20,060 bases of DNA, taken from IMG/VR virus record IMGVR_UViG_3300049440_000245, positions 1 to 20,060 of that record, one strand, 5' to 3'. This document shows positions 1 through 18,541 of the stretch, in pieces. The stretch is from a virus. The first letter of the stretch is position 1, and the number at the start of each line of letters is the position of its first letter. The position numbers and the translations under genes were made by a program. The notes beneath the pieces were generated by a model. The model made no database searches. It worked only from the letters and a program-made list of their open reading frames with translations, and had not been told where the DNA came from.

Positions 1-512
1 GCGGACGCGAAGGCGTAGAAGCCGTCCATCTTGCGCGGCAGCACGCCGACGCTGTTGCCCTGAGCCGTCTGGAACTGACGGATCGAGTGCACGAGCGCGA
101 ACTCGATGAAGCGAGCGAGCTCCATCGACGCCTTGCGCAGCTGGTAGACGTATTCGTCGCGGATGCCCGCGGTGTTCACGTCACGCTGGGTGTCGGACAC
201 ATCGAAGGTCCGGCGGATGATGTGCGTCAGATTGCACAGGCGCTTGCGCGGGACAAGCGGTTCGAAGGTCGCGTCCGAACCTTCCGCGACGGCCTGCACG
301 TCGGCATTGCCAACGTCCGGGTCGCCGAAGTCGGCGAGGATGTCCACCAGCCACTCGTGCGTGGTGTTGGAGGCGGGAACCTTCTCGAGCCCAGACAGCA
401 TGAGCGTGTCCATGGGCGAGATGTTCGTGATGATCTCGAGGAGATCCTCACGGTTGCCACGCTCGATGTCGAACGTGGACAGAATCGAAGTGTCACCGAT
501 GAAAGAGGTCAT
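1..512 (-). CDS. Major capsid protein, SU10-like (partial, C-terminus beyond window)
   Basis: Reading leftward from the ATG at 512-510, the frame stays open to the window edge and gives the first 170 residues. The N-terminus has the pattern of the SU10-type/DUF5309 major capsid family: an acidic 'NREDLLEIITNISPMDT' segment (about residues 20-36), then 'THEWLVDILAD', an 'AEGSDATF' segment, and 'TFDVSDTQRDVNTAG' followed by a long helix 'YQLRKASMELARFIEF'. These correspond to the HK97-fold N-arm/E-loop region and start of the spine helix. As the shell subunit it would assemble around the scaffold encoded just upstream. No Shine-Dalgarno sequence precedes the start; a stem-loop occupies the whole gap to the scaffold gene. 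The family call rests on motif recognition, and the C-terminal half is unseen. Confidence 0.88.
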   Translation of the reverse strand, partial: MTSFIGDTSILSTFDIERGNREDLLEIITNISPMDTLMLSGLEKVPASNTTHEWLVDILADFGDPDVGNADVQAVAEGSDATFEPLVPRKRLCNLTHIIRRTFDVSDTQRDVNTAGIRDEYVYQLRKASMELARFIEFALVHSIRQFQTAQGNSVGVLPRKMDGFYAFAS

Positions 513-513
513 T

Positions 514-554
514 TGGGTTGGATCTGCGGTCGTGGTTGACCGCGACTCAACCCA
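514..554 (-). promoter_or_regulatory. Stem-loop filling the scaffold-capsid intergenic gap
   Basis: On the transcribed strand an outer stem (TGGGTTG at 554-548 with CAACCCA at 520-514) encloses an inner perfect 6-bp stem (GCGGTC/GACCGC, 543-538 with 531-526) and a 6-nt loop, separated by a small asymmetric internal loop. It starts five bases after the scaffold stop codon and ends one base before the capsid ATG. A translational control or mRNA-processing element is an inference; the base pairing is directly visible. Confidence 0.6.
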
Positions 555-1997: not shown

Positions 1998-2419
1998 GCT
2001 GGATTCCTTGGTTCTCTTGGGATTGGCGGCGGCGGAATCCGCCGCTCAAGTTGCTTCCTGGCATCCTGCGCTCCGGCGAGAGCTTCCGCAAGAGTCTGCC
2101 GTGTGCTCTTGGTCCGATCGACCACGTTGATCACGGCCTCGAGCTCGAGACACCTGCCGGTGAGGATGTTGGCTTCACGGTCGTTCTTGGCCCCAAACAG
2201 CTCCTTCATGCGACTTTGGCGCATGTCGCGGAGCGCCTGAACGAACAGCTGGAACCCAGCGCCGGAAGCCATCTGCAGCACGCCATCAGCCATGGTGATC
2301 GCGGCCTGCAGGGTGGCGATCCGCTTGTCGGCCGCCTCCAGCTGCTCGATCTCGTCCTTCCGCACGTCGCGGAAGGCGATGTCGTCTGGCGGAGGAGCTG
2401 AGAAGTCGAGTTGCGTCAC
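1994..2419 (-). CDS. Hypothetical helical protein coupled to portal
   Basis: This 141-aa product begins with GTG at 2419-2417, overlapping the portal stop codon as GTGA, so it is probably translated by termination-reinitiation. It is almost entirely helical by composition: residues 20-55 (KDEIEQLEAADKRIATLQAA) and 90-128 look like coiled coil, and the C-terminus is a Pro/Arg-rich tail. No catalytic motif, Cys pair or transmembrane segment is visible. Position between portal and scaffold suggests a structural or assembly role. I do not recognise a family. Confidence 0.65.
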   Translation of the reverse strand: MTQLDFSAPPPDDIAFRDVRKDEIEQLEAADKRIATLQAAITMADGVLQMASGAGFQLFVQALRDMRQSRMKELFGAKNDREANILTGRCLELEAVINVVDRTKSTRQTLAEALAGAQDARKQLERRIPPPPIPREPRNPA

Positions 2420-4857
2420 ATGGCGCCTGGGTTGGGCGCACCGGCCATGGCCGGGCTCTTCACGTCAGCCGACGGCCCTTGCCGCTCGTTCTCGTTGCGC
2501 CTGATCTTGGGACTCGTGGGTTGCTGATCTGGAGTGGCGGCGCCTTCTGGCGCCACGCCGTTGTCGCTGCCGAGTTCTTCGGTCATGCCACCGCCAGCGT
2601 CCACTGTGGCGCCGACCAAGTTCTGCAGCGTCGCCTGCTGCTGCATCATCATCATCATCTGCTCCTGCAGCTCGGCGAGTCGCGCCAGCTTCCGCATGTG
2701 GTCAGCGATGTGCGCTCTTGCCATCGCAGCGGTCGGCGGATCCGACTCCTCGAGAGCCTGGAAGCGTTCCGACTTGAGTTCTTCGCTGTGCGCCAGCCAG
2801 TGGCGAAGATCGTTGTCGTCGGCGCGGCGCGGCGGAACGTTGCCGTGATACCAGAGCTCGTGCTCCTCGAGAGCGGTGAGCAGGTGAGTCTCGTCCGGGG
2901 AGCGTTGGATGAACTCATCCACGTTCCTCATGTCGAAGCCGTTCTCCAAGATGTAGCCGAACAGCCTCGGCATGTTGACGGCCTTCGGACCATACTGCTG
3001 GTTGATCACCGGCGCGCGATCGAGCAGGTTGACGAGCTGCTGCACCTGCGTCTGCTTCGTCAGCAACCGGAAGCCGGAGAGAGGTTGGCAGATGAAGCGA
3101 CCGAGGATGTCCTCGGGCCGCACCATGAAACGGTCGCGGTAGCTGATCCCCATCGGTCCGATCTGCCGGATCACCCTCGGCATGGACATGAACTGCATGT
3201 TGTTCCAGACGATCATGTCCAACATCGGCACGGTGACTTCCGTGTCGTAGTTGTTGATCGGACCACTGAGGCGCATGTTCGCCTCGTTGAGGTCGTTGTT
3301 GCTCTGCGTCGCAGTCTTGCCTGAGCCGCCGAGTGGATCGGTCGCGCCAAGGACTGGCGCGGTGACGCCAGTGACCTCACGCATCTCGACCTCGAGCACG
3401 TTCTCAGCGCGCAGCACGGTGTCGCTCACCTGATTGAACTGCACCGGCATCACCGCTTCGTTCGGGTTGCCTGGCACACGGATGATCAGGCCGGGCTGAG
3501 CCAGCAGCTGACCTGGAGCGATGTTAGCCTGATCGGAGACAACCATCATCGGGTTGCCTTCGAGCTGCGTCGCCGCCATCAACAGCTGACGCTTCGTGTC
3601 CTTCTCCACGGAGAGCCTGGCGATCGGCTCGATCACGCCCATGCCGAAGAGTTCGCCCTCGAGCTCGATCGGTCGCCACACCTGATACGGCTTCTTGCCG
3701 TGCCAGTAGGGGTTCTGAGTCACGCGCGGGATCAGCGCCAGACCGTTCGGGTCCAGCATCACCACGTTGCAGATGCGGGTGGTGTAGGAGCCGCTCTCGT
3801 CCTTGATCACCAGCGGGCCCCACCAATCCACGCACTCGTAGTGCGGGATGTGGGGAGCCTGCGCGCCGTTGCGGTTGTCGTAGACGCCGTAGGCGTAGGC
3901 CTTGCGCTGCTTGAACGGATCCTCGTAGCTGAAGTCGTTGCTGCCGCCGTAACCGGCCAAACCCTCGAGGCCGATCCAGTGCCCCATCTCGACCATCTGC
4001 TTCACGCGGAAGTCGGGCCACATGGATCGGTCGAGGCACCACTCCGCTTCGTCGATCGAAGACGCGCACGGAGAAGCCTGGAAGTCGAAGATGCTGATCG
4101 GCAGCACGTCGTTGCCGTCGAACAACAGCTCCTTCCTCGTCACCGCTTCCATGTCTACTCGAGAAGCGCCTGGGATCTTCGGGTCCGGGATGCGTCGAGC
4201 AACGCGGTAGGAACGCTCGCCAATCTCCTGCTTCCAGTAGGTCTTCTGGATCGCGGTGCCGTAGATCAGACCATCGCGAATGAACCTCGAAGCCTTCTGC
4301 TTGTAGTTGCAGACGCGAAGCTGGTCGTAGCTGAGCATCTCCTGCGCCGCGGCAGGAACGTCATGCTCGTTGTCGACGCCGTAGAGCTTGAACCACTGAT
4401 CGCTGCCGAACACCGTTCGCATGATCCTTGGGTGGATCGACTCGACGAGCTTGAACGGCGTCGGCGAGTGCAGCTGCATGCGACCGTAGTTGAACTGGTT
4501 GATCGTCTCGCCGCGGTAGAGGCGGTAGAGGATCAGCCACTTGTTCCGCAGATACTGCATCGTCGCGAAGACATCTTTCAGCGACGCCAGCACGGCGGCC
4601 TTCGCCTGCTCCAACACGAACGGATCATCGGCCAGGTTGGGGAACCCGACCATCTCGTTGTAGAGCTTGCTGACCTTCTCGACGTTCCGGTTGTCCTGGT
4701 AGGTCTCGACCAGTGAGTGCGCGCCGAAGACTGGATCGGTCCCCTTGCGCTTGGTCGCGACTCCCATGCCGCGATTGGGTGTGGCGTAGGAATTGACCCG
4801 CGTCATCGGCGGGTTCGTGCCGTTGCCGATCTGCAGCCTGTCGGAAGCGACGGTCAT
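2416..4857 (-). CDS. Portal protein (head-tail connector)
   Basis: This 813-aa protein has the features of large podovirus/SU10-type portal proteins. It has an N-terminal disordered arm (residues 1-45), a helical segment 'FATMQYLRNKWLILYRLY', the early conserved stretch 'HSPTPFKLVESIHPRIMRTVFG' (split here as residues near 130-150), a middle beta-rich wing with 'YECVDWWGPLVIKD', then 'IELEGELFGMGVIEPIARLS' and the stem/crown helices 'VLEVEMREVTGVTAPVLGA'. The dodecameric ring would sit at one capsid vertex, dock the terminase and admit DNA. The C-terminus is Gln/Met-rich with five consecutive Met residues and then disordered. It starts 3 bases after the preceding gene and its stop overlaps the next gene. 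Confidence 0.85.
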   Translation of the reverse strand: MTVASDRLQIGNGTNPPMTRVNSYATPNRGMGVATKRKGTDPVFGAHSLVETYQDNRNVEKVSKLYNEMVGFPNLADDPFVLEQAKAAVLASLKDVFATMQYLRNKWLILYRLYRGETINQFNYGRMQLHSPTPFKLVESIHPRIMRTVFGSDQWFKLYGVDNEHDVPAAAQEMLSYDQLRVCNYKQKASRFIRDGLIYGTAIQKTYWKQEIGERSYRVARRIPDPKIPGASRVDMEAVTRKELLFDGNDVLPISIFDFQASPCASSIDEAEWCLDRSMWPDFRVKQMVEMGHWIGLEGLAGYGGSNDFSYEDPFKQRKAYAYGVYDNRNGAQAPHIPHYECVDWWGPLVIKDESGSYTTRICNVVMLDPNGLALIPRVTQNPYWHGKKPYQVWRPIELEGELFGMGVIEPIARLSVEKDTKRQLLMAATQLEGNPMMVVSDQANIAPGQLLAQPGLIIRVPGNPNEAVMPVQFNQVSDTVLRAENVLEVEMREVTGVTAPVLGATDPLGGSGKTATQSNNDLNEANMRLSGPINNYDTEVTVPMLDMIVWNNMQFMSMPRVIRQIGPMGISYRDRFMVRPEDILGRFICQPLSGFRLLTKQTQVQQLVNLLDRAPVINQQYGPKAVNMPRLFGYILENGFDMRNVDEFIQRSPDETHLLTALEEHELWYHGNVPPRRADDNDLRHWLAHSEELKSERFQALEESDPPTAAMARAHIADHMRKLARLAELQEQMMMMMQQQATLQNLVGATVDAGGGMTEELGSDNGVAPEGAATPDQQPTSPKIRRNENERQGPSADVKSPAMAGAPNPGAM

Positions 4858-4860
4858 GGG

Positions 4861-5202
4861 TCAGCTCGCGGTGTGATTGAACTCTTTCGCCACCGACTTG
4901 CTTGGACACGGCTTGCTCATCGAGCCAGGACTGTGCTCGCAGCCGCGCATGAACCGTGCCTGCTTCTCGCTAGTCGCCGGGTTGTGCGCCATCCGCGTGA
5001 ACGGGTTGATCCCCTCTAGCGGCGCCAACGGGCTGGTCCCCTCACCGCGCTCATCACCTTCTGCGGTCTCCTCCTCCGCGGTCTCACGATTCGGGTCGAT
5101 GAAGTCGAACTGGCTCGACTTGAGCGGCATCGGCGTGAGCCGGCTCTGGTTCGCATCGGCCAGCGTCGGCAGCATGTGATCCGGCGGGTTCTTTGGTCTC
5201 AT
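4861..5202 (-). CDS. Small head-operon protein with SxKQxRFM motif
   Basis: This 113-aa protein has a C-terminal segment (about residues 75-113) 'TSEKQARFMRGCEHSPG' followed by 'PSKSVAKEFNHTA'. The pattern S-x-KQ-x-RFM ... H ... P-S-x-x-VAxEF recurs in many small phage proteins encoded near head and packaging genes; their function is unknown. The central part (residues 40-60) is acidic. The ATG at 5202 overlaps the upstream gene by 119 bases in another frame; internal ATG codons at 5175 or 5130 would shorten the overlap while keeping the motif. It ends 3 bases before the portal start, so it is probably co-translated with portal. Confidence 0.68.
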   Translation of the reverse strand: MRPKNPPDHMLPTLADANQSRLTPMPLKSSQFDFIDPNRETAEEETAEGDERGEGTSPLAPLEGINPFTRMAHNPATSEKQARFMRGCEHSPGSMSKPCPSKSVAKEFNHTAS

Positions 5203-5953
5203 CGAAGTTCGCCTTGGGGAAGATGTCGTAGATCGGACCGCTGAAGCCAGGGTCGAGGCGAACCCTACCAGGGAAGGTCTTGCTGTGCCACTCGCACCAT
5301 GCCAAGGCGCGTTTCTGCTCGTAGAACGTTGTGCGCTTCGTCACCGGGTTGGTGTGCCCGAAGTGGTAGCCAACGCCGTTCTGTAGGGTGAAGCCGACCG
5401 CGTAGATCGGGTCGCAACCCATGAGGTGCGCCAACTGAATGGCGAAGCACAGGCTGTTGGCGCCTGGATGGAAATGCTCAGAGACCGACGCCGGCATGAA
5501 CGGCGGAGCCATGGCAAACTCGATCTGCCCGGTCTTGGTGCGCCTCGCTCCGCCGAGCGACTTGATCTTGATCTCGGTGATCGCGCGCTGGCCCTGCCCA
5601 ACCATCTTCATGCGTCGCGCATGCGCTGTGCTGAAGACTCCTCCACCGAAGATGTTCGCGCCAGCAACTACAACCATGGAGTCGGGACATCGAGCGAGCT
5701 GAGATCCTTCGCACTTCCAGACCCCCGCGTCCACGACAAGCCAGATGCTGGGGACCACAACTCGGAGGGTCCAGTTGGTGCCGATGGAGAGCTCACCTCT
5801 TGCGGCGGCAAAGCCTGCGGACTCAGCCAACCCCCCAGCTCCCCCAAGCAGGAAGACTTTTCTGCCGGCAGCAGATCCATCAAGCCAGTTCGCGCCAGGA
5901 CTTCGGCCACGCGGTGCCGGTAGGTGTGCCGCCTGCCAATCTGGTTGGAACAT
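5084..5953 (-). CDS. Rossmann-type MptE/GT42-like protein of the glycosylation cassette
   Basis: The frame encodes 289 aa, of which about residues 30-245 look genuinely coding. Residues 32-42 (KVFLLGGAGGL) form a Rossmann-like glycine-rich first strand and loop; 'SIGTNWTL' and 'WLVVDAGVW' follow, and later 'GANSLCFAIQLAHLMGCDPIYAVGF' (about 165-189). This order (glycine loop, GxN, D near a third strand, then SG/GANxxxxAxxLAxxLG-Y-x-G) resembles MptE-like (DUF115) proteins and family-42 sialyltransferases, which act on sugars or nucleotide-activated substrates. The first 28 residues overlap the preceding glycosyltransferase out of frame and may not be translated; no GTG/TTG alternative start lies closer to the domain. 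The exact reaction cannot be told. Confidence 0.6.
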   Translation of the reverse strand: MFQPDWQAAHLPAPRGRSPGANWLDGSAAGRKVFLLGGAGGLAESAGFAAARGELSIGTNWTLRVVVPSIWLVVDAGVWKCEGSQLARCPDSMVVVAGANIFGGGVFSTAHARRMKMVGQGQRAITEIKIKSLGGARRTKTGQIEFAMAPPFMPASVSEHFHPGANSLCFAIQLAHLMGCDPIYAVGFTLQNGVGYHFGHTNPVTKRTTFYEQKRALAWCEWHSKTFPGRVRLDPGFSGPIYDIFPKANFDETKEPAGSHAADAGRCEPEPAHADAAQVEPVRLHRPES

Positions 5954-7017
5954 GCGTGCCCAATCTCCTCGGCTTCATCTTGGTGTTCAAGGTAGTAGAG
6001 AACCAGCGACACGAAGTGATCGACGCCACTCGCGCGCGGTGCCATCGGGAACATGCGTCGAAGCTCTGACCTCGAGTCATCGCTAACGACCAGAGTCCCA
6101 CACGCGGCCATCTCGAAGAACCTCGGGTTGACGTGCGCCGCTGGAAGATTCGCATCGTTCCAGAAGCCGGTGCCATCCTCCGGCGGCATCTCCTTGCACA
6201 GCTGCAGGCCTGTCGGAAGGGTCATGGTCGCCGGCCGCCGCTCGACACGATTGCGGAAACACTCTCTCGTGATGCCAGGGCTCCTGTGCACGTTGAGGCC
6301 GACGACGCAGTTGGAGTAGTAGCTCGGGTGCTGGTTCCATGGGATCCAATCGGGGTTGCCCTTGGCAACGATCGAGTGCCGGCCAGCTCTCGGTCTCGGC
6401 CAGTAGCGAATCTCCGCACCACTCACCAGCTTCTCAACTGCGCGCAGGTATGGCTCCCGCGGCTTCAGCATCGGGTTGCCGAGGAAGAAGGCTGGCACCG
6501 TCCTGCTCGAGTAGTCACGCAGCGTGAACAGGTCTGTATCGACGCACGGCGGCAAGTAGAAGACTCCGCGCCTCTGCGTCTGTGATCGCGACTCCGCGTG
6601 CGCCTTCACCGTGAGCGGATCCATGGTGAACACGAAATCGAATCGCGGGCTGTAGCGCGCGGTCTCGCCAGTCTCATAGGGCTCGTCGCAGAGGTAAACC
6701 GCGGTCGGTATGCCGCGGCGCTTGAACTGCGACAAGAACGACTCGTTGCCGGCCGCGCGTCCGTGGTGGCACCAGAGCAGGTCGGGACGCCACGCGATGA
6801 TGTTCTCGGCCATCCCTCGCGACATCGTGCCGCCGCGCGTGCTGAGGTGACCGCCTCCGCCGCGGCGCAGCGACGATACATCTGTCACCAGCACTTCACA
6901 GCCAATGCTCTTGAAGCCGGCCAACCAACCCATGCGCCAGTCGTCGCTGTAGATCAGGCCGGCGTCGTCAGCGATCGCGACGCGCGGAGGTCCTGACCTA
7001 CCGACCACACGGTTCAC
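5668..7017 (-). CDS. Glycosyltransferase, CgeB-like GT-B fold
   Basis: The start is taken as GTG at 7017, which overlaps the upstream stop as GTGA and gives 449 aa. Residues 10-130 form the N-terminal half-domain (PRVAIADDAGLIYSDDW ... IPTAVYLCDEPYET), close to the DUF3880/CgeB N-domain. Residues 150-380 form the donor-binding half, with 'YLPPCVDTDLF', 'GLNVHRSP', the key 'HVNPRFFEMAACGTLVVSDD' (295-314) and the terminal 'RHTYRHRVAEVL' helix, all characteristic of the Glyco_trans_1_2 (CgeB) family. It would transfer a sugar from a nucleotide donor to an unknown acceptor. Beyond about residue 383 the sequence loses family character and lies opposite the next gene's Rossmann start, so the true C-terminus is uncertain. 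Confidence 0.8.
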   Translation of the reverse strand: MNRVVGRSGPPRVAIADDAGLIYSDDWRMGWLAGFKSIGCEVLVTDVSSLRRGGGGHLSTRGGTMSRGMAENIIAWRPDLLWCHHGRAAGNESFLSQFKRRGIPTAVYLCDEPYETGETARYSPRFDFVFTMDPLTVKAHAESRSQTQRRGVFYLPPCVDTDLFTLRDYSSRTVPAFFLGNPMLKPREPYLRAVEKLVSGAEIRYWPRPRAGRHSIVAKGNPDWIPWNQHPSYYSNCVVGLNVHRSPGITRECFRNRVERRPATMTLPTGLQLCKEMPPEDGTGFWNDANLPAAHVNPRFFEMAACGTLVVSDDSRSELRRMFPMAPRASGVDHFVSLVLYYLEHQDEAEEIGHACSNQIGRRHTYRHRVAEVLARTGLMDLLPAEKSSCLGELGGWLSPQALPPQEVSSPSAPTGPSELWSPASGLSWTRGSGSAKDLSSLDVPTPWL

Positions 7018-7697
7018 TTGGCCGTCTTGAGCAGCGTGAGCCTGACGGAAGGGATGGCCCACGAGCACAGGCCGAGACCGCGAAGCGCATGCTGCAGCGG
7101 GCTGCTGTAGTCGTCCTCGGCCAAGCCGAACTTGATCTGACCAAGAGCCGAAGCTACGAACGACCGCTGCACCATGAAGACGCGACCGGGAACGTCCTGA
7201 CGAGGATCCCAGCGATGCGGTGGCCGCGTGTTTCCGGCCATGTCGTCGAACGCGAAGGACATCCCGCAGCTGGAGTCCTTGGTGAACGGCATCTGCATCT
7301 TGCCGAACCACTCCGGGTCGGTGAGCAGGCAATCGACCGGGATGCTGAGGATGTAGTCGGTAGTGGCGTTGGCAAGGTCGCGGTCGATCGCCTGGTTCAC
7401 GCCTTCTGCTGACTGCATCAGCACCCAATCGGCGCCACGCATCGCGGACATCAGCGACGTGACCCAGCCGACTTGCTCTTCACTCAACGCGCCGATCAGG
7501 GCGACGACCAGCCTGTGCTTGAGCGGAGTGTTCTTCTCGATCCAGGTCACAGCCGTGTCGAGGAGATCGACCTTCTCAGCCGGAACCGAGAGCAGGATGG
7601 TGAGGCGCGGAACCTCCTTCTTGAGATCTGGCCCCTTCCCTGGCAACAAAGGTTTGGTTGCACCGCCGGGAGCAGAAAATCGGTCTCTGTTTTCCAT
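7014..7697 (-). CDS. GT-A/family 2-like glycosyltransferase, degenerate
   Basis: This 227-aa product has a glycosyltransferase family 2-like order: first strand 'RLTILLSVPAEK' (31-42), 'RLVVALIGALSEEQ' (62-75), 'GVNQAIDRDLANATTDYILSIPVD' (99-122; quoted motif split by strands) where D122 takes the place of the metal-binding DxD, and 'GLAEDDY' (191-197) resembling the acidic ED base motif. It is shorter than typical GT2 enzymes and the DxD is reduced, so activity is uncertain. The ATG at 7697 lies inside the preceding zinc-ribbon gene (122-base overlap). A perfect AAGGAGGT sequence occurs at 7619-7612 just before the conserved first strand, yet no start codon follows it at normal spacing. Confidence 0.6.
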   Translation of the reverse strand: MENRDRFSAPGGATKPLLPGKGPDLKKEVPRLTILLSVPAEKVDLLDTAVTWIEKNTPLKHRLVVALIGALSEEQVGWVTSLMSAMRGADWVLMQSAEGVNQAIDRDLANATTDYILSIPVDCLLTDPEWFGKMQMPFTKDSSCGMSFAFDDMAGNTRPPHRWDPRQDVPGRVFMVQRSFVASALGQIKFGLAEDDYSSPLQHALRGLGLCSWAIPSVRLTLLKTAK

Positions 7698-7788
7698 CGC
7701 GTATCGCCGCCTTGTGTGGGCCTGCTGGGATGACTACCTCTTTGCCGCAGCCGAAGCAATGCACCGTGACTGTTTCGTAGATGCTCAC
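7576..7788 (-). CDS. Small zinc-ribbon protein (YacG-like spacing)
   Basis: This 70-aa protein starts with GTG at 7788, overlapping the upstream stop as GTGA. Residues 11-43 carry CxxC ('CFGCGKE') and, 23 residues later, 'FCSRRC', i.e. CPxC/FCSxxC spacing like that of YacG-type treble-clef or zinc-ribbon proteins. The C-terminal 25 residues overlap the next gene in another frame and are low in character. A second protein of the same design is encoded upstream of the large terminase. Zn binding is likely; whether it binds DNA or protein is unknown. Confidence 0.62.
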   Translation of the reverse strand: MSIYETVTVHCFGCGKEVVIPAGPHKAAIRDGKQRPIFCSRRCNQTFVAREGARSQEGGSAPHHPALGSG

Positions 7789-8174
7789 AGCACCCAGTCG
7801 CCTGACTTCTTCGCTGGAGCCACTGAAGCTGGAAGGATGAGCTCGCGCTTCTTCGGCAGAGGAGCGACCGGACTCGCGAGCTCGCCGCGGCGGTCCATCT
7901 CCTCCTCGGTGACGTGCTCGTTGACGACAGCTTCGCGGCCCGGCGCGCGCTTCACCTGACGTTCGTCGGCGGCCTTGTCCATTCGTAGCTGCTGAGCGTT
8001 GCGCGCCGGCATTCGGTAGTCAGAGCCGTGCTGGATCGGCAGCGCGTTGCCGACCGGACCAGGGGCACCGAGTTGTTCGATGCAGCGATGCACGAAGACC
8101 TCGACGCCATCCTGAGCCTGCTGCAGGAACGGAGCGTCTTCGCCGAACTCGTTGATGAGCAGCTCGCGCACCAT
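7785..8174 (-). CDS. Hypothetical protein after the large terminase
   Basis: The frame is open further upstream, but the likely start is ATG at 8174, eleven bases after the terminase stop codon, giving 129 aa. The N-terminal 45 residues (VRELLINEFGEDAPFLQQ, then VEVFVHRCIEQL) look like a compact helical domain; the rest is charged and Pro-rich with a predicted disordered tail. No catalytic motif or membrane segment was seen. Its stop overlaps the start of the zinc-ribbon gene. Placement after terminase suggests a packaging or head accessory role, but the family is not recognised. Confidence 0.58.
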   Translation of the reverse strand: MVRELLINEFGEDAPFLQQAQDGVEVFVHRCIEQLGAPGPVGNALPIQHGSDYRMPARNAQQLRMDKAADERQVKRAPGREAVVNEHVTEEEMDRRGELASPVAPLPKKRELILPASVAPAKKSGDWVL

Positions 8175-8185
8175 CTGGCCAGCTT

Positions 8186-9901
8186 CTACTGCGGGCCGAA
8201 GATGTCGCGATTTGACTGGTTGGAGGTTCCGCGGAAGAGGCTTCCCGGTGCGGAATCGCTGTTCTTGCTGCCCCACAGATCGTGCTCCTTGTTCTTGGTG
8301 AACTCGCGTGCTGGATACTTGGCGTCAGGGTTATAGCGCCCGTCGACAGTCGGTGGTGTGAATCGCTTCACCTCGAGCGGCGTCCACCCAGGAGGTGGCC
8401 CAGGGAAGTAGAACTTTCCCGAGTCATCCACCTTGTCGAGGTCGCTGATCGCGTCGGGGATGTCGTCGTTCGCGCTGAACGGCCACTCGGTCATCTCGTC
8501 GAGCATCGGCTTCCACTTGGTGGCGAACTGCTGACGCACGAACTCGGTGAAGTAGATGTTGCCACCGCGGAAGCGCGGCTCGATCGACTCGATCCTGATG
8601 TCCTTGATCTCCTGGTTGCGCCCAGCGATCTCGATGAAGCGCGGCCGGATGAAGGTCTGTCGACGCACCTCCTCGAACAGCGACATGAGGAGTTCCTTGT
8701 GCGTCGTCTTCTCGACGCCGACGCCCTTCACGTTGAGCGGCTGGAACCTGGTCCACAGGTCACACACGATCCGACAGGAATCCGAAGGCCGCCAGCGACC
8801 GATGTAGAGATCACGCACGTAGGCGGTGCGGTTGCAGTCGAGGCTCACGACCCAGAAGCAGCAGCGGTCCGACTTTGACTTCGACTTCTTCTCGTCAGCG
8901 GTGAACGCGAAGTCCGTGAGCACGTAGGTCCACACAGAGCCGGGCACGTCCTGGTCGCGGATGACGTGGAAGTAGTCCTCGTGGAAGATCTGGTCGTCGC
9001 CGGTCTGCGGCTTGTTCTCGTAGAAGCACGCGAACAGGCGCGGCACCTGCTTCACCTTGCGGTCAGCGATGAACGCGCGCGTGAGCCTCTTCGGGAAGAA
9101 GAGCGTCGTCGGCTCCTTGCCTCGCGGATCCACCAGCGGCTCGCACCATGCGTGCTTGCTGATCTCGAAGGTCGCGGCGATCGCCGGATCCTTGATGATG
9201 CGACAGTAGATGTCGTTGTAGTGGTGGAGCGTGCCGATGACGAAGAGCTTGGTGCCGGGGTCGAGCTGCGACTGCACCTCGGAGAACCACGACCACAGTG
9301 AGTCGATCGACTCCGGCGTCTTGGTGTTCTCCTGCGAACAAACGTCGTCCATGAGAACAACGTCCCAGTGCGCGCCGGTCTGCACTTCGCCGACGCCCGA
9401 CGAGGCCAGCGTCGGATCCTTGATGCCCTGCCGCGTGCGCAGCGCCGAGTAGAAGACGCCGGACGCCTCCTTCCACTTGTCGCCGCGGTGCACGCCGAAC
9501 CGATCGCGGAACCACTGGCTGTCCACGATCTTCATCACTTCGGCGGCGAACTTCTGCGCCTGACGCGCGGTCTCCGAGCAGATCAGGATGCGGATGTTCG
9601 GGTCACGCGCGATCAGCCACGCCGCCTGGCCGATCGTGAACACCTGGCTCTTGAAGGAGCCGCGCGGCCAGAGCGCCATCTTCGATCGGAAGTTGGTGAT
9701 CTCCGGGTTGTCCGGGTCCGGGTCGCCCTGCCAGGTGACGAGCGACTGCGCGTAGCGACCATGCGGCTGCCACTCAGCATCTGGCGCTGCACCGCTGTCG
9801 CGCACGAAGTCGAGGAAGCCCTCGTCCGAGGTGTAGTAGTCGCGCTCCCGGCTCAACCGCTCGGTGCGAAGCTGCTCCAGCGTTAGGGTCGACTCTTCCA
9901 T
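8186..9901 (-). CDS. terL: Terminase large subunit (TerL)
   Basis: The start at ATG 9901 (shared base with the upstream stop, TGATG) gives 571 aa, a normal TerL size. The ATPase domain has a Walker A-like loop 'PRGSFKS' (79-85), adenine-motif region 'ILICSETARQAQKFA' (105-119), Walker B 'DVVLMDD' (180-186) and coupling motif 'IGTLHHYND' (222-230). The nuclease domain shows the RNase H-fold acidic residues: D330 in 'LTDFAF', E397 in 'GVEKTTHKEL' and D480/D483 in 'NDDIPDAISDL'. The protein cuts concatemeric DNA and drives it into the prohead through the portal. The P-loop has Phe where Gly is common (GSFKS rather than GSGKS). The packaging type (cos or headful) cannot be told here. Confidence 0.93.
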   Translation of the reverse strand: MEESTLTLEQLRTERLSRERDYYTSDEGFLDFVRDSGAAPDAEWQPHGRYAQSLVTWQGDPDPDNPEITNFRSKMALWPRGSFKSQVFTIGQAAWLIARDPNIRILICSETARQAQKFAAEVMKIVDSQWFRDRFGVHRGDKWKEASGVFYSALRTRQGIKDPTLASSGVGEVQTGAHWDVVLMDDVCSQENTKTPESIDSLWSWFSEVQSQLDPGTKLFVIGTLHHYNDIYCRIIKDPAIAATFEISKHAWCEPLVDPRGKEPTTLFFPKRLTRAFIADRKVKQVPRLFACFYENKPQTGDDQIFHEDYFHVIRDQDVPGSVWTYVLTDFAFTADEKKSKSKSDRCCFWVVSLDCNRTAYVRDLYIGRWRPSDSCRIVCDLWTRFQPLNVKGVGVEKTTHKELLMSLFEEVRRQTFIRPRFIEIAGRNQEIKDIRIESIEPRFRGGNIYFTEFVRQQFATKWKPMLDEMTEWPFSANDDIPDAISDLDKVDDSGKFYFPGPPPGWTPLEVKRFTPPTVDGRYNPDAKYPAREFTKNKEHDLWGSKNSDSAPGSLFRGTSNQSNRDIFGPQ

Positions 9902-10128
9902 CACCACTTGATCATGTGAGCAGCGCCGTGGTGCGTCTTGTCTTCGAGCTTGTAGCCTTCCTGCAGGCACTGCTCCGAGCAGAAGAACGTCGCTGTGCGC
10001 ATCCACTGCGCGTCGTCGAAGAAGCACGTCGACTCAGGGGCAATGACGTTACCGCACTTCGGGCACTGGGTGGCTCGCGGAGGAACGCCGATGCCGAGGA
10101 ACTTGGTCTTGTGCGCGATGACGTTCAC
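9901..10128 (-). CDS. Small zinc-ribbon protein between terminase subunits
   Basis: This is a 75-aa product starting at GTG 10128, overlapping the TerS stop as GTGA and preceded by AAGGAGAG six bases upstream. It has 'CPKCGNV' (about 24-30), a lone Cys in 'STCFFDD' and 'FFCSEQCLQEGY' (about 51-62), giving a CxxC...CxxxC zinc-binding site with the FCSxxC signature of YacG-like proteins. Longer upstream extensions of the frame lie inside TerS and are shadows. Its stop shares a base with the TerL start, so the three genes are tightly coupled. A packaging accessory role is plausible from position only. Confidence 0.72.
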   Translation of the reverse strand: MNVIAHKTKFLGIGVPPRATQCPKCGNVIAPESTCFFDDAQWMRTATFFCSEQCLQEGYKLEDKTHHGAAHMIKW

Positions 10129-10865
10129 TTGGTCTCTCCTTCGCCTTCGAGCTTCAGGCCCTTGACGGTATCGATCATCACGAAGTCGGCCTGCTTGATC
10201 TCTTCGATGCGCTTCTTCTTCTTCAGCTCGAGCTGCACCATCGCCTCGACCTCGGCCTTCTGCTGCTCGCCGAAGTTGACGTTGTGCGTCACCTCGACTC
10301 GGCGCACCGCGCTGTCGACGATGCCTAGCGACTGGAGCAGGCCGACCATCTCCTTGGTCACCCTGAAGTAGGCGGCCCACTCCTCCTGCTTGATCAGCCC
10401 TTCCTGCGCGCGCTCGTAGGCGAGTTGGATGTGACCGGCGAGGGTGTTGAGCCGGATCTGGCTGACCTGCGCGCCGATGTTGTCGGCGTGCTCGTTGAAC
10501 AGGCGAGCCACCTCGAGCGGGTCCATCTGCAGCTCGTGGCCGATGACCTCGCTGCGGTAGCCCTGCTCGCGCAGCGTGACGATCAGCGCGACCTGTTGCG
10601 GCCGTAGCAGCGTCGTGAACCACTTCGCTCGCTCCGGCCGCTGCGTGATCTGGAGCTCGGTCCACATCCGCCGGCCGAGGTCACGCATGGTGATCGTCGG
10701 CGTGAACCCATCCTTGTCCTTGGCTGGCGGAGAGGCGAGCGCGCCGCTGTCAGAGACGAGCTCGACCAGCTGCTGGAACGAGAGGCCGACCGCGGCCGCC
10801 GCTTGCTCGAGTTTGTCCTTCGATTTTGGATCAAGCAGTTGGGTGTCGATCTTCTTAGCTGACAC
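10125..10865 (-). CDS. Probable terminase small subunit (TerS-like)
   Basis: This 246-aa protein sits upstream of TerL, separated by the zinc-ribbon gene. Residues 88-128 (LRPQQVALIVTLREQGYRSE ... DPLEVARLFNEH) look like a helix-turn-helix DNA-binding segment of the type found in small terminase subunits. Residues 135-185 are helical (possible oligomerisation core), and residues 205-225 are a Lys/Glu-rich helix (LELKKKKRIEEI), with an acidic C-terminal end that could contact TerL. It would recognise phage DNA and recruit TerL. It overlaps the HNH gene by 11 bases at its start. The assignment relies on position and the HTH. Confidence 0.62.
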   Translation of the reverse strand: MSAKKIDTQLLDPKSKDKLEQAAAAVGLSFQQLVELVSDSGALASPPAKDKDGFTPTITMRDLGRRMWTELQITQRPERAKWFTTLLRPQQVALIVTLREQGYRSEVIGHELQMDPLEVARLFNEHADNIGAQVSQIRLNTLAGHIQLAYERAQEGLIKQEEWAAYFRVTKEMVGLLQSLGIVDSAVRRVEVTHNVNFGEQQKAEVEAMVQLELKKKKRIEEIKQADFVMIDTVKGLKLEGEGETK

Positions 10866-11256
10866 GGCGACGACCTCGAAGGATCTTGTCGCGCTCGTTG
10901 TCCTTGTGAGTGCCGGCGCGAATGTGCATCGGGTTCACGCAAGGCGGATTGTCGCAGGAGTGGAGCACTAGCTGTCCTGGTTCGAGAGGTCCGAATACTA
11001 GCTCGAACATGAAGCGATGAGATCTGAGCATCACGTTGCGACCGCCGATCTGCTCGGTGAAGACTCCGTAGCCGCCGGTGTCGAGTGCTCCGGTCCACGG
11101 CCAACATTGGAACGGTCTGCGCTCCACGAAGGCCATGAACCTCTGAACTCGATCGGGCTCGAACATCAACTTGATGCGTCGCCACAGGTCGCGGGAAGCG
11201 TTCAAGCTTCCCTGCTTCGCGTAAAGCTCAGCTCGAACTCTGTCGACGAACAGCAT
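10855..11256 (-). CDS. HNH endonuclease (HNH_3 type)
   Basis: This 133-aa protein shows the HNH_3 pattern: 'CWPWTGALDTGGYG' (51-64), 'SHRFMFELVFG' (79-89), and the catalytic 'LHSCDNPPCVNPMHI' (98-112) with the beta-beta-alpha metal motif, then 'GTHKDNERDKILRGR'. Cys101 and Cys106 may bind structural Zn. Such enzymes nick or cut DNA, often as free-standing homing endonucleases; some phage HNH proteins next to terminase genes take part in packaging. Both roles are open here. No separate DNA-binding domain is visible. A related HNH gene lies at 18119 in the right arm. Confidence 0.85.
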   Translation of the reverse strand: MLFVDRVRAELYAKQGSLNASRDLWRRIKLMFEPDRVQRFMAFVERRPFQCWPWTGALDTGGYGVFTEQIGGRNVMLRSHRFMFELVFGPLEPGQLVLHSCDNPPCVNPMHIRAGTHKDNERDKILRGRRRVS

Positions 11257-11274
11257 GGCTCACGGCTTCACCGG

Positions 11275-11640
11275 CTACTCCTTGGGAGGCCCGCTGACCT
11301 GCGCGCGCGGCTTCCACTCGACCTTGACCTGCGGCTTCTCCTCGAGCGCGATGCGCGCCATGTGCACGGCCTTGCTGATCATCAGCTGCAGGCCGACGAA
11401 CCGATGGCCTTCCGCGCGCAGGAACTTCTGCGCCGCGTGCGTGGAGTCGAATCCGCCGACACCGGGCGCCGGGATCAGCGTCCCCTTCGCGTGCGCCGGG
11501 TCTTCGCTGATGACGTAGATCCTGAAGTCGCCACCATCGTCGCCAGGGAACAGCCGGTAGCGCCGCTGCTTCTTCGCGCGCTTGCCTTTCGGAGTTGGTG
11601 TGGCGTCGGTGGGGGTCGAGAGGGCTTGCGTTTCACTCAT
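11275..11640 (-). CDS. Hypothetical protein, early in left operon
   Basis: ATG at 11640 gives 121 aa; an in-frame GTG at 11649 is the alternative start. The N-terminus is Thr/Pro/Lys-rich and basic (GKRAKKQRRYRLF, about 18-30). A beta-rich middle follows (FRIYVISED ... GTLIPAPGVGGFDS), then a helix (THAAQKFLRAEGHRFVGLQ) and a second helix with a basic C-terminal tail. The 'FxSTHxAxKFLRxEG' pattern recalls small helical capping segments, but I recognise no family. It lies 18 bases ahead of the HNH gene. Confidence 0.6.
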   Translation of the reverse strand: MSETQALSTPTDATPTPKGKRAKKQRRYRLFPGDDGGDFRIYVISEDPAHAKGTLIPAPGVGGFDSTHAAQKFLRAEGHRFVGLQLMISKAVHMARIALEEKPQVKVEWKPRAQVSGPPKE

Positions 11641-11679
11641 GGTTGCCACTCGTAGCGGGTGGCGTTGTCGGTTGCAACC

Positions 11680-11925
11680 TCATTTGTTGCTACCAAGGCT
11701 ATCGCCGTCGTCGAACGGCAGCGGCGGCAGCTTCGGTTTTGGCTTTCTCGTCGCAGCTGCCGTCCTTGCGTATTCCTCGGCCTCGTTGTGGGCACGGACC
11801 AGCTCTTCGCTGTGGATCTTGCTCCACTCCGCCCAGGTCTCGCTCCAAGGAAGTGGCGCACCCATCGCCGCCAACAGCTCCTTCAGCTTTCGCTTCCTCC
11901 GCGCCATGAAGTCCGGCCTCCCCAT
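11680..11925 (-). CDS. Small basic hypothetical protein
   Basis: This 81-aa product uses the ATG at 11925, which shares one base with the upstream stop (TGATG). The N-terminal 20 residues are strongly basic (ARRKRKLKELLAAMG); the middle contains a Trp-rich helix (WSETWAEWSKIHSEELVRAH), followed by a Lys/Pro stretch and an acidic end. It has no Cys pairs or membrane segment. Upstream in-frame extension lies inside the 138-aa gene in another frame and is not supported. The function is unknown. Confidence 0.55.
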   Translation of the reverse strand: MGRPDFMARRKRKLKELLAAMGAPLPWSETWAEWSKIHSEELVRAHNEAEEYARTAAATRKPKPKLPPLPFDDGDSLGSNK

Positions 11926-12341
11926 CACGCATCTCCCTGCTTGCGCATGCCGATGTCTGGGTTCTCGCGCATGAAGTCGAGCACTTCGGAGTGCGTTGGG
12001 GTGTATCCAGCGCCCTTCTCGCTCAAGATCATCTTGCAGGCCAACGAATACTTGAACGGCCACACCCTTGGATCGTTGAGCACGTCCTTGCGACCGAGCT
12101 CGTCCAGCTTCGGCCTTCCACCGATGCCAACAACGGGCTGGAACTTCATCGCGAGTGGCGAGCACTTCTCGCATCCCTGCTGACTCGACTCCTCGAAATA
12201 CCACACCAGGAACTCGAGCACGCGCCCAGCTGACAGCTTCCACGTCGGGAAGGCGTAGGCCTGCTGCCGGACGTGCATGTTCTCCATCAGCCGCTGGAAC
12301 GACTCGAACGCCATCTCGTGCACGCCAATCGTCTTTGCCAT
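11925..12341 (-). CDS. Lead gene of the left operon, hypothetical
   Basis: This 138-aa protein is the first gene read leftward from the divergent promoter. It is mixed alpha/beta in composition with two Cys in 'GCEKCSP' (about residues 56-62). 'SAGRVLEFLVWYFEESSQ' and 'WPFKYSLACKMILSEKG' are its most structured stretches, and the C-terminus ends in 'EVLDFMRENPDIGMRKQGDA'. I recognise no family. Its start codon lies exactly seven bases after a near-consensus -10 hexamer, so the message may be leaderless; an internal ATG at residue 10 is an alternative start. Confidence 0.65.
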   Translation of the reverse strand: MAKTIGVHEMAFESFQRLMENMHVRQQAYAFPTWKLSAGRVLEFLVWYFEESSQQGCEKCSPLAMKFQPVVGIGGRPKLDELGRKDVLNDPRVWPFKYSLACKMILSEKGAGYTPTHSEVLDFMRENPDIGMRKQGDA

Positions 12342-12348
12342 GGCCTCG

Positions 12349-12377
12349 TGTATACCTTACCGAAGTAGCTTCGTCAA
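12349..12377 (-). promoter_or_regulatory. Sigma70-type promoter of the left (late/structural) operon
   Basis: On the minus strand TTGACG (12377-12372) and TATACA (12354-12349) are separated by exactly 17 bases: five of six matches at -35 and a strong -10. The predicted transcription start falls at about 12342-12341, i.e. at the ATG of the 138-aa gene. A small inverted repeat CGAAG/CTTCG (12361-12365 with 12369-12373) lies in the spacer and touches the -35, where a regulator could bind. Confidence 0.75.
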
Positions 12378-12471
12378 GCGGCCTGCCAAGCAGAAAACGT
12401 CACGGCCAGTTGGAGAGTCGCCGGGGTTCACTTACTTCTTGTAGTGAGGAGCTTTTTGTAGGGCTCTCTAC

Positions 12472-12490
12472 GAGAGAGAGAGAGAGAGAG
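12472..12490. repeat. GA dinucleotide microsatellite
   Basis: Nineteen bases of perfect alternating GA. The first GAGAG can pair with CTCTC at 12464-12469 just upstream to form a small hairpin. Such tracts are slippage-prone, so copy number may vary between isolates or reads. Confidence 0.9.
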
Positions 12491-12627
12491 AAGATCATAT
12501 CTATTGCCTCTCCTCTATATCTGCTTCTGTGCTGTAGGTTTTTCTCGGCAATTTTTGCAGGATTTTTTCTGGTGCGCTCGTGTTTTCCGTGAGGACATTA
12601 CGCGAGAGCGGACTTTGCACTTCCTGG

Positions 12628-13421: not shown

Positions 13422-14438
13422 ATGGCACACGAAATCCGCTCAACAGACCGTTTCGGCGAAGTGAGGGCTCAGGGCAAACGTGCGTGGCACGGCCTGGGCG
13501 TCGAGATTCCCGAAGGCATCAGCACCGTTGATGCGATGAAACTGACCGGGCTCGACTGGGAAACCGAGCTATTGACCGTGCACGCCGAACGGCTCACAGC
13601 GGAGGGGGTCGAATCCATTCCCCTCCCCGACCACCGTGCACACTTCCGCAAGGGCACGAACCAACGGCTCGGCATGGTGTCCTCAGACTGGAAACCAGTC
13701 GAGAACCTGGAGCTAGCCGAGTTTGCCGATGCTCTGCTCGGCGAGGACCGTGCGGCGACGTGCGAGACGGTCGGCTCGCTGTTCGACTGCCGCAAGGTGT
13801 TCGCGCTGATCCGCCTCCCTGGCGACCTACAGGCCGCGGTCGGCGACAAGCTGGCGACCTACATCGCCATAACGAATGGCCACGGCGGGACGGCCGCCTT
13901 CGCCGCCTACCCGACCACGGTGCGCATCGTCTGCAACAACACGCTCCGCATGTCCGAGCAGTCGCTCAGTCAGGGTGCACGGTTCGTGCACACTGGCGAC
14001 CTCAAGGGCAAGCTGGCCACGGCTCGACTGGTCCTCGGGTTCGCTCACAAGGAACTCGAACGGTTGGACGAACAGATCCGCGCCATGGTGAACCAACGGC
14101 CAGGGTCGGCCGCCATCGCCTCATTCCTTGACCGTGCGTTCCGCGCGACGTTCGCCGCTCCGTCAGCTGACGACGTGGAAGCAACGGAGAAGTGGAACAG
14201 CAAGCGTGTCGAGACGCAGCACCGTTGGGCCGATATCTACAAGCTGGAATGCGACCGCACCCCCGCCATCGCTGGCAGTGTGTGGGCCGCCTTCAATGCG
14301 GTCACCGAATGGCACGACCACGAACGTGGCCGCTTCGAAGATGTCGCCACAAGCGATGCGCGCGTCCACTCGAACCTCTTCGGTGTCTCGCACGTAGCGA
14401 AGTCTAAGACTCTCAAGCTTGCCATGTCGCTGGTGTAG
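13422..14438 (+). CDS. DUF932 family phage/plasmid-like protein
   Basis: This 338-aa protein has the hallmarks of the DUF932 family (phage/plasmid-like protein, TIGR03299-type): 'RAWHGLG' near residue 20-26, 'RLGMVSSDWKPVEN' (82-95), 'YIAITNGHGG' (147-156) and 'TVRIVCNNTL' (166-175). The ATG follows AAGGAAAG by five bases. DUF932 proteins are common on phages and conjugative plasmids; their biochemical role is not established, though association with recombination and DNA-processing genes is frequent. Here the next gene, two bases away, is a RadC-like protein, which fits that association. Length is normal and I see no disruption. Confidence 0.88.
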   Translation: MAHEIRSTDRFGEVRAQGKRAWHGLGVEIPEGISTVDAMKLTGLDWETELLTVHAERLTAEGVESIPLPDHRAHFRKGTNQRLGMVSSDWKPVENLELAEFADALLGEDRAATCETVGSLFDCRKVFALIRLPGDLQAAVGDKLATYIAITNGHGGTAAFAAYPTTVRIVCNNTLRMSEQSLSQGARFVHTGDLKGKLATARLVLGFAHKELERLDEQIRAMVNQRPGSAAIASFLDRAFRATFAAPSADDVEATEKWNSKRVETQHRWADIYKLECDRTPAIAGSVWAAFNAVTEWHDHERGRFEDVATSDARVHSNLFGVSHVAKSKTLKLAMSLV

Positions 14439-14440
14439 CC

Positions 14441-14899
14441 ATGATCCGCCACACTTGGCGACAAGTCCGCGTCTCGCTGGTGCGCGAGGGTGCACCGGCG
14501 CGATTCGACGGTCTGCTGACAATGAGTGGCGACGAGCAGGCGGCAGGCTTGGCGCGAGCCGTGATCGGTGACGATCCACGCGAACACTTCCTGGCCATCT
14601 ATCTGGACACGAGACACCGCGCGATCGGCGTGCACGTGGTCAGCATCGGCACCGCTGACGTCTCGCTGGTGCACCCGCGCGAGGTGTTTGGCCCTGCCTT
14701 GATGCTCCACGCGACCGCTCTGATCGTCGTGCACAACCATCCGTCAGGTGACCCGTGCCCGTCTGCTGAGGACAAGCGGCTAACGGAAAGGCTCCGCGAC
14801 GCGGGCACGTTGCTGGGCATCGAGTTGCTGGACCATCTGGTCCTGGGCAGTGAACGCTTCTTTTCCTTCGCCGACGAAGGCTACAAGGTGATGCCTTGA
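14441..14899 (+). CDS. radC: RadC-like JAB/MPN (JAMM) domain protein
   Basis: This 152-aa protein consists of a RadC-type JAB1/MPN domain without the N-terminal HhH part of chromosomal RadC. E48 in 'PREHFLAIYLD', 'VVHNHPSGDP' (H98, H100) and 'SAEDKRLTERL' (D111) form the metal-binding JAMM signature E...HxH...S..D, and 'GTLLGIELLDHLVLG' matches the conserved end. RadC proteins are frequent on mobile elements; peptidase, nuclease or repair roles remain debated. It begins two bases after DUF932, and its own end carries AAGGTGATG that probably serves the next start. All metal ligands are present, so the fold should be active. Confidence 0.88.
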   Translation: MIRHTWRQVRVSLVREGAPARFDGLLTMSGDEQAAGLARAVIGDDPREHFLAIYLDTRHRAIGVHVVSIGTADVSLVHPREVFGPALMLHATALIVVHNHPSGDPCPSAEDKRLTERLRDAGTLLGIELLDHLVLGSERFFSFADEGYKVMP

Positions 14900-18129: not shown

Positions 18130-18541
18130 GTGCATCCTCTGGAAAGGTGCGCTCGACGCCGATGGCTATGGCCAGCTGACGCGGAGGTGGCGTGGCACAA
18201 GACGAGCGCCGCGCAAGGCATTCTTCGACGCCTACGGCTTCCTCCCTGAAGTGGTCATGCACCTCTGCGACAACCCGCCGTGCGTGAACCCGCAGCACCT
18301 TCGCGGTGGAACGAAGATCGACAACATCGCCGACATGTGGAGCAAGGGTCGCGGTTCGAAGCCGCCACGCAACCCACACCTTCGAGGCGAAAAGGCTCCT
18401 TGGTCGAAGCTGAAGGAGAAGGACGTCAAACTCATTCGCCTGTTGGTGAAGGCCGGCTTCAGCCAGCGAGTGTTGGCCAAGGTCTATGGCGTCAGTCCGG
18501 CAACCATCACGTTGATCAAGAAAAGGAAGATTTGGAAATGA
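18119..18541 (+). CDS. HNH endonuclease with C-terminal HTH
   Basis: ATG at 18119 (11 bases inside the helicase end) gives 140 aa; a longer frame start at 18095 lies deeper in the helicase. 'CILWKGALDADGYGQL' (5-20) and 'MHLCDNPPCVNPQHLRGGT' (47-65) match the HNH_3 nuclease core. In place of the usual aHR segment it has 'APRKAFF'. Residues 96-139 (KLKEKDVKLIRLLVKAG, then VLAKVYGVSPATITLIK) form a helix-turn-helix of the type joined to phage homing endonucleases. It is related to the HNH gene at 10855 and may be a free-standing homing gene placed between helicase and the next gene without disrupting either. Confidence 0.87.
   Translation: MRSRCILWKGALDADGYGQLTRRWRGTRRAPRKAFFDAYGFLPEVVMHLCDNPPCVNPQHLRGGTKIDNIADMWSKGRGSKPPRNPHLRGEKAPWSKLKEKDVKLIRLLVKAGFSQRVLAKVYGVSPATITLIKKRKIWK

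Follow-up and report, generated by a model that had tools for sequence, protein, structure and literature searches.

Two questions are raised by a virus record of the IMG/VR type comprising 20,060 bases (hereafter, the window, that is, the whole stretch of DNA that was analysed). What is the role of three co-oriented enzyme genes that lie on the minus strand at positions 5084-7697, with the large terminase gene (TerL) on one side and an SU10-type portal gene on the other, and how are two of these genes decoded from the same nucleotides? The three genes encode a GT-A-fold protein (GTA), a GT-B glycosyltransferase (CgeB) and an MptE/GT42-like protein (hereafter, MptE). An earlier sequence-only reading described three co-oriented open reading frames (ORFs) between terminase and portal, and their place and strand are confirmed here. 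We find that the CgeB and MptE genes overlap out of frame over 286 nucleotides (nt), and we argue that the cassette probably encodes a glycan-assembly module. Virion glycosylation is already known in phages; what is new here is this overlap, which is long and precisely conserved. The features of the cassette are as follows.

7014..7697, minus strand: GTA, a GT-A-fold glycosyltransferase-like protein of 227 amino acids (ORF, AlphaFold2 model, Foldseek, family profiles)
5668..7017, minus strand: CgeB, a GT-B glycosyltransferase (Glyco_trans_1_2) of 449 amino acids with a GTG start (Pfam PF13524)
5084..5953, minus strand: MptE/GT42-like protein of 289 amino acids (AlphaFold2 model, Foldseek against PDB and BFVD, 51-member alignment)
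5668..5953, minus strand: 286-nt dual-coding overlap of the CgeB C-terminus and the MptE N-terminus (lengths across loci, frame-identity null tests)
5965..5969, minus strand: Shine-Dalgarno-like AGGAG within CgeB, 11 nt before the MptE ATG (motif match)
5951..5953, minus strand: internal start codon ATG of MptE (start-codon counts in 61 loci)

A long and conserved out-of-frame overlap

In the overlap, MptE is read in the +2 frame (equivalent to -1) relative to CgeB, and the C-terminal tail of CgeB (residues ~381-449) is encoded only there. The sequence-only reading noted the overlaps of the cassette with neighbouring genes but missed this one. Searches of IMG/VR with CgeB and MptE, followed by removal of identical loci, yielded 61 distinct loci, in 57 of which the overlap is 280-292 nt long, whereas in 4 it is 352 nt. 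Both ends of the overlap stay fixed down to 42% identity in CgeB and 32% in MptE, and CgeB remains conserved to its final residue in relatives of ~50% identity. The subclade with the 352-nt overlap (L027, L080, L082 and L083) has a longer CgeB tail and, in three of its four members, a GTG start of MptE. An assembly frameshift that would have artificially joined CgeB and MptE was considered and rejected, given that the same two frames are found in all 61 loci.

An open CgeB frame might be a functionless by-product that is held open by the MptE protein, and a single locus has a fair chance of such a frame (median 0.22). We therefore compared the CgeB frame with a null model in which the MptE protein is held constant and synonymous codons are redrawn from the codon usage of the locus itself. 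Among diverged pairs, identity in the CgeB frame is 0.46, against 0.27 under the null (standard deviation 0.003); among 14 mutually diverged representatives, the values are 0.398 and 0.233, respectively, with the highest of 200 null values at 0.254. Stops in the CgeB frame of these representatives number 0.07 per locus against 1.55 expected, and the fixed CgeB stop has a joint probability of ~1e-18 if the 14 are treated as independent; the loci are related, so that none of these overlap statistics is a strict probability. Furthermore, opposite MptE codons 36, 46, 86 and 93, among others, CgeB has Leu, Gln, Ser and Trp with little or no variation, even though the MptE residue varies (for example, CgeB has S in 57 of 57 loci where MptE has L or I). 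Together, the excess identity, the fixed stop and the invariant residues make it extremely improbable that the tail is a by-product; instead, it is under purifying selection up to its fixed stop.

Identity in the third frame is also raised (0.334 against a null of 0.220), as expected when the CgeB frame constrains the nucleotides, and this frame retains its stops, at 2.4 per locus against an expected 1.9. Non-coding constraint on the nucleotides of the overlap was rejected as an explanation on these grounds, the excess being smaller in the third frame and the stops being retained there, whereas the CgeB frame is almost free of them.

Two proteins rather than a frameshift fusion

The start of MptE is conserved in its own right. 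The start codon is ATG in 56 loci, GTG in 4 and TTG in 1. Its first base occupies the third position of a CgeB codon, where A accounts for 92% and C is absent, compared with 10% A and 40% C at such positions elsewhere; this bias indicates that the start codon is under selection. A Shine-Dalgarno-like motif within 15 nt of the start in 57 of the 61 loci is by itself weak evidence because it is partly forced by conserved Glu codons of CgeB.

A programmed -1 frameshift in the overlap, in the style of the tail-assembly chaperones, would produce a single CgeB-MptE fusion instead of two proteins. The geometry suits a -1 shift, the GT-B domain ends approximately where the MptE fold starts, and a TTGGGG run is conserved, but no slippery X XXY YYZ heptamer occupies an in-frame position common to more than 9 of 57 loci. 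The chaperone shifts combine a conserved heptamer with a downstream ORF that lacks a start of its own, and CgeB/MptE has neither trait. Given also the selection that acts on the MptE start and on the CgeB tail up to its fixed stop, we consider a frameshift fusion very unlikely. Comparison of the loci thus shows true dual coding, and from the selected start, in combination with the lack of a conserved slippery site, we conclude that CgeB and MptE are made independently, as two proteins from overlapping genes.

Three glycosyltransferase folds

Each of the three folds named in the sequence-only reading holds, so that there is no pair among the three proteins that lacks a glycosyltransferase fold. 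The assignment is most direct for CgeB, described there as a CgeB-like GT-B enzyme: residues 295-375 match the PF13524 (Glyco_trans_1_2) profile at 65.1 bits, where the cut-off is 25 (E 8.5e-18). Its GTG start overlaps the stop of GTA by 4 nt (GTGA).

GTA, predicted to be GT-A-like, yields an AlphaFold2 model of high quality (predicted local distance difference test, pLDDT, 88.4; predicted template-modelling score, pTM, 0.82). A Foldseek search of the PDB with this model returned 656 matches at E<=1e-3, and the 50 listed are GT-A-type enzymes, with E values from 2e-9. The Pfam Glycos_transf_2 profile (PF00535) is matched by 15 of 31 GTA family members at E<=0.1 (best 8e-9), but the window protein itself falls below the cut-off (13.1 against 23.3 bits, E 0.094). 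Accordingly, we file GTA as a GT-A-fold relative, not as a GT2 enzyme.

The model of MptE, for which an MptE/GT42-like fold had been proposed, is of comparable quality (pLDDT 83.8, pTM 0.82), with a variable C-terminal tail (residues ~250-289) of low confidence. CstI/CstII sialyltransferases of family GT42 take all of the first 12 places among its PDB matches (Foldseek probability 0.84-1.00), and matches in the BFVD library of viral structures are phage proteins named MptE-like and one DUF115 protein. The likeness to CstII is modest (template-modelling score, TM, ~0.38-0.49, best E 1.7e-3), and we therefore assign the protein to the GT42/MptE fold class and to no named family. The window protein does not match PF01973 (MptE-like/Maf_flag10), and only 2 of 51 family members do so, weakly (best E 0.026). 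CstI and CstII employ Tyr162, Tyr156 and His188 as catalytic residues and CMP-sialic acid as the donor; in a weak profile alignment (E 2.2), Tyr162 of CstII pairs with the invariant Y196 of the phage proteins, and Tyr156 falls in a gap. A sialyltransferase match of MptE among the PHROG families (E 0.18) was not relied on.

Beyond these folds, the three proteins yielded no tblastn match among the 50,697 phage records of INPHARED, nothing usable among the PDB sequences and only chance-level matches in NCBIfam.

A fixed core with a variable surround

Dozens of IMG/VR contigs, with identities of 38-98%, show the cassette genes in the same order and reading frames, which are thus not a product of chance. 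The bias of searching with the cassette enzymes themselves was avoided by using TerL as the IMG/VR query. All TerL relatives with at least 41% identity and ~2.4 kilobases (kb) or more of downstream sequence carry both CgeB and MptE; two shorter contigs stop inside CgeB and a few stop before it, and the sole longer locus without CgeB and MptE is that of a 22% relative. A GT-A homologue is present in the slot in all 46 loci that contain both TerL and CgeB. A set of three enzymes with different folds is thus a fixed core part of this lineage, which is widespread and uncultured, and its fixity suggests that the lineage may depend on glycosylation of the particle instead of using it as an accessory trait. 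Few phages are known to have glycosylated virions.

Around this core, the gene content varies among relatives (gene calls were crude for the four relatives that were annotated, and poor for G007, with 64% coding). In L157, which belongs to the same group as L101, the slot between TerL and portal (4847-8249) is enlarged and contains, in order, a GT9-like gene recognized by eye (no Pfam match), a strong GT2 gene (2.9e-17), a weaker GT2 gene, a Methyltransf_24 gene (1.2e-15), a further GT-A-like gene, CgeB and MptE. G003, G010 and L118 have added GT2 or TOD1/MUCI70 genes between TerS and TerL, accompanied in G003 and L118 by methyltransferase genes.

L118 is a contig of a GTDB genome (BDTL01000023.1, 'Bacterium BMS3Bbin02') that resembles a phage contig of this lineage; between TerS and TerL, it carries two methyltransferases, one TOD1/MUCI70 gene and further glycosyltransferases. 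Its presence in a metagenome-assembled genome is possibly a binning artefact, and it was the sole find in a scan of genome contigs for the lineage.

The flanking genes

On the minus strand, the genes follow in the order TerS, a small zinc-finger-like ORF, TerL, g129, the CxxC ORF, GTA, CgeB, MptE, g113, portal, small ORFs, a probable scaffold and the SU10-type capsid protein. The features that flank the cassette are the following.

8186..9901, minus strand: TerL, large terminase, which borders the cassette upstream (phrog_38, 4.9e-66)
7785..8174, minus strand: g129, small ORF that follows TerL and precedes the CxxC zinc-finger-like ORF, kept in relatives (no family match)
7576..7788, minus strand: small CxxC zinc-finger-like ORF with a 122-nt overlap with GTA, kept in most relatives
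4861..5202, minus strand: g113, small ORF with a 119-nt overlap with MptE (phrog_16759, of unknown function, 5.4e-4)
2416..4857, minus strand: SU10-type portal, which borders the cassette downstream (Pfam SU10_portal, 1.9e-20)
1..539, minus strand: SU10-type major capsid protein, truncated by the window end (Pfam SU10_MCP PF17236, 2.6e-32)

No promoter-like site was found in 4500-12600, which, together with the short or overlapping gene junctions, fits a single operon that extends from TerS through the head genes. The overlaps with neighbouring genes at the two ends of the cassette (7576-7697 and 5084-5202) are present as the sequence-only reading described them; both are out of frame, and their lengths vary among relatives. 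In L002, the start of the zinc-finger ORF is read in the GTA frame. The capsid protein shows distant likeness (~33% identity or less) to those of phages such as Pseudomonas phage SCYZ1.

Elsewhere in the window, TerS and a conserved small ORF are separated by an ORF for an HNH_3 endonuclease (10855-11256, minus strand); it was not detected at that place in close relatives, and the HNH gene is therefore probably mobile. Another HNH_3-like ORF (18095-18541, plus strand), whose product has a helix-turn-helix at its C-terminus, lies directly downstream of a gene for an SNF2-type helicase. Adjoining genes for DUF932 and RadC-like JAB proteins (13422-14896, plus strand) run divergently from the operon of packaging and head genes.

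What may be glycosylated?

On balance, we favour, with moderate confidence, the reading in which the cassette is a phage glycan-assembly module for late, sequential glycosylation of a virion protein, with CgeB and MptE as separate, dual-coded products. The three genes would form the invariant core of the module and would be expressed alongside the packaging and head proteins, with MptE translated from its own conserved start inside CgeB. The CgeB, GT42/MptE-like and GT-A enzymes would add sugars in succession, in the cytoplasm, to Ser/Thr residues of the capsid or another structural protein, giving rise to glycosylated particles; the SU10-type capsid protein is a speculative candidate acceptor. 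A virion acceptor is favoured by the fixed place in the operon, the lack of any obvious membrane helix in the three proteins (highest 19-residue hydropathy mean 1.41), the lack of thymidylate-synthase-type hydroxymethylases in 15 relatives of 39-49 kb (the control was positive in 9 genomes) and the precedent of the mycobacteriophages. The virion acceptor proposed in the sequence-only reading is, hence, better supported by the fixed core in an apparent late operon, the extra glycosyltransferases and methyltransferases and the missing hydroxymethylase, with the identity of the acceptor itself still an inference.

The alternatives differ in the acceptor. Many phage glycosyltransferases modify DNA bases, in a hypermodification that counters restriction, and the cassette genes adjoin packaging genes; still, a DNA target appears improbable given the absence of the thymidylate-synthase/hydroxymethylase family from the relatives examined and of any base-modification enzyme from the Pfam matches of two relatives. 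No Tet/JBP match was obtained either, but the control for that search was silent, so that this result is not evidence of absence. The GT42/MptE and CgeB folds are not known from DNA glycosyltransferases. Somewhat less improbable, although unlikely all the same, is an alteration of the host surface glycan (O-antigen or capsule) against superinfection, akin to seroconversion. In favour of this reading, pathways for surface polysaccharides typically employ GT2 enzymes, GT42-like enzymes and enzymes of the kind suggested by the GT9-like gene (by eye) of one relative. Seroconversion genes usually reside in lysogeny or early regions, whereas this cassette is fixed between TerL and the portal; nor is there an obvious membrane helix in its proteins, and the genes matched by Pfam in two relatives included neither a flippase nor a polymerase.

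Several observations weigh against virion glycosylation as well. Position in the operon is no proof of a virion target, and the acceptor, donor and activity are all inferred, for a lineage that has no known cultured member. The position of the GT2 DXD motif is degenerate in the window GTA (IPVDCLLTDPEW) and the aligned place is variable across the family, so that this enzyme may be inactive or degenerate. The structural likeness of MptE to CstII is modest; of the two catalytic tyrosines of CstII, a single one could be paired with a phage residue, and then in a profile alignment that is itself weak.

Within the virion-glycosylation reading, the fixed overlap ties CgeB and MptE together genetically and translationally, which fits an enzyme pair, and a glycan whose linkage is constant and whose periphery varies would match the gene content, in which CgeB and MptE are invariant and the outer set changes. 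A more specific scenario, which we put forward only tentatively, is that of a lineage-wide obligate pair in which the CgeB tail, which arose by overprinting on MptE, serves as the docking site for the GT42-like partner; the resulting complex of two enzymes, encoded in one bicistronic stretch, would both attach and extend the glycan of the virion protein, and swappable GT2 and methyltransferase genes of this operon would diversify its outer part.

Comparison with known systems

The closest functional precedent is found in mycobacteriophages. Cluster O phages encode three tandem glycosyltransferases beside an O-methyltransferase gene, and their capsid and tail tube are glycosylated (PMC11600133; PMC12363180). 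The present cassette shares with the systems of Corndog (cluster O), Che8 and Myrna, as far as Freeman et al. 2023 is cited in those two papers, tandem phage glycosyltransferases and a virion-protein target, which here is proposed. Glycosyltransferases in or near the structural operon, as in a phage virion-glycosylation module, are found in this lineage, and methyltransferases occur in some of the relatives, too. The differences are the SU10-type capsid and portal, the fixed slot between TerL and portal, the combination of GT-B, GT42-like and GT-A folds, and the 286-nt dual-coding overlap. The tblastn search of the phage collection, the sole comparison that bears on homology to the mycobacteriophage enzymes, gave no match.

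MptE shares its fold class with CstII and with the Maf flagellin glycosyltransferases, in which the PF01973 domain, described as structurally similar to Cst-II, is the central domain, via which Maf enzymes O-glycosylate flagellin, a self-assembling structural protein (PMC11339370). Unlike these, the phage protein consists of a single domain and falls below the Pfam cut-off. CgeB is a clear member of the CgeB-type GT-B enzymes (PF13524) with the conserved C-terminal half domain, but differs from other members in the extra tail of ~70 residues that is encoded in the MptE overlap.

Among the overlapping genes of DNA viruses (surveys in PMC8903798 and PMC7017920), CgeB/MptE belongs to the same-strand +2 phase, the commonest in double-stranded DNA (dsDNA) viruses. 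Across 12,609 surveyed virus genomes, overlaps of this phase came mostly from dsDNA viruses and were almost entirely of 1 or 4 nt, and the median overlap region in DNA viruses was 15.6 nt (PMC8903798). An overlap of 286 nt in the window, and of 280-352 nt among its relatives, with both ends held across the lineage, is far outside the surveyed range, and we found no paper on this overlapping pair in the open-licence literature. Two folded enzymes that share ~95 codons in conserved dual coding are a rarity among dsDNA phages, and CgeB/MptE is a good natural case for the study of overprinting, translational coupling and enzyme pairing.

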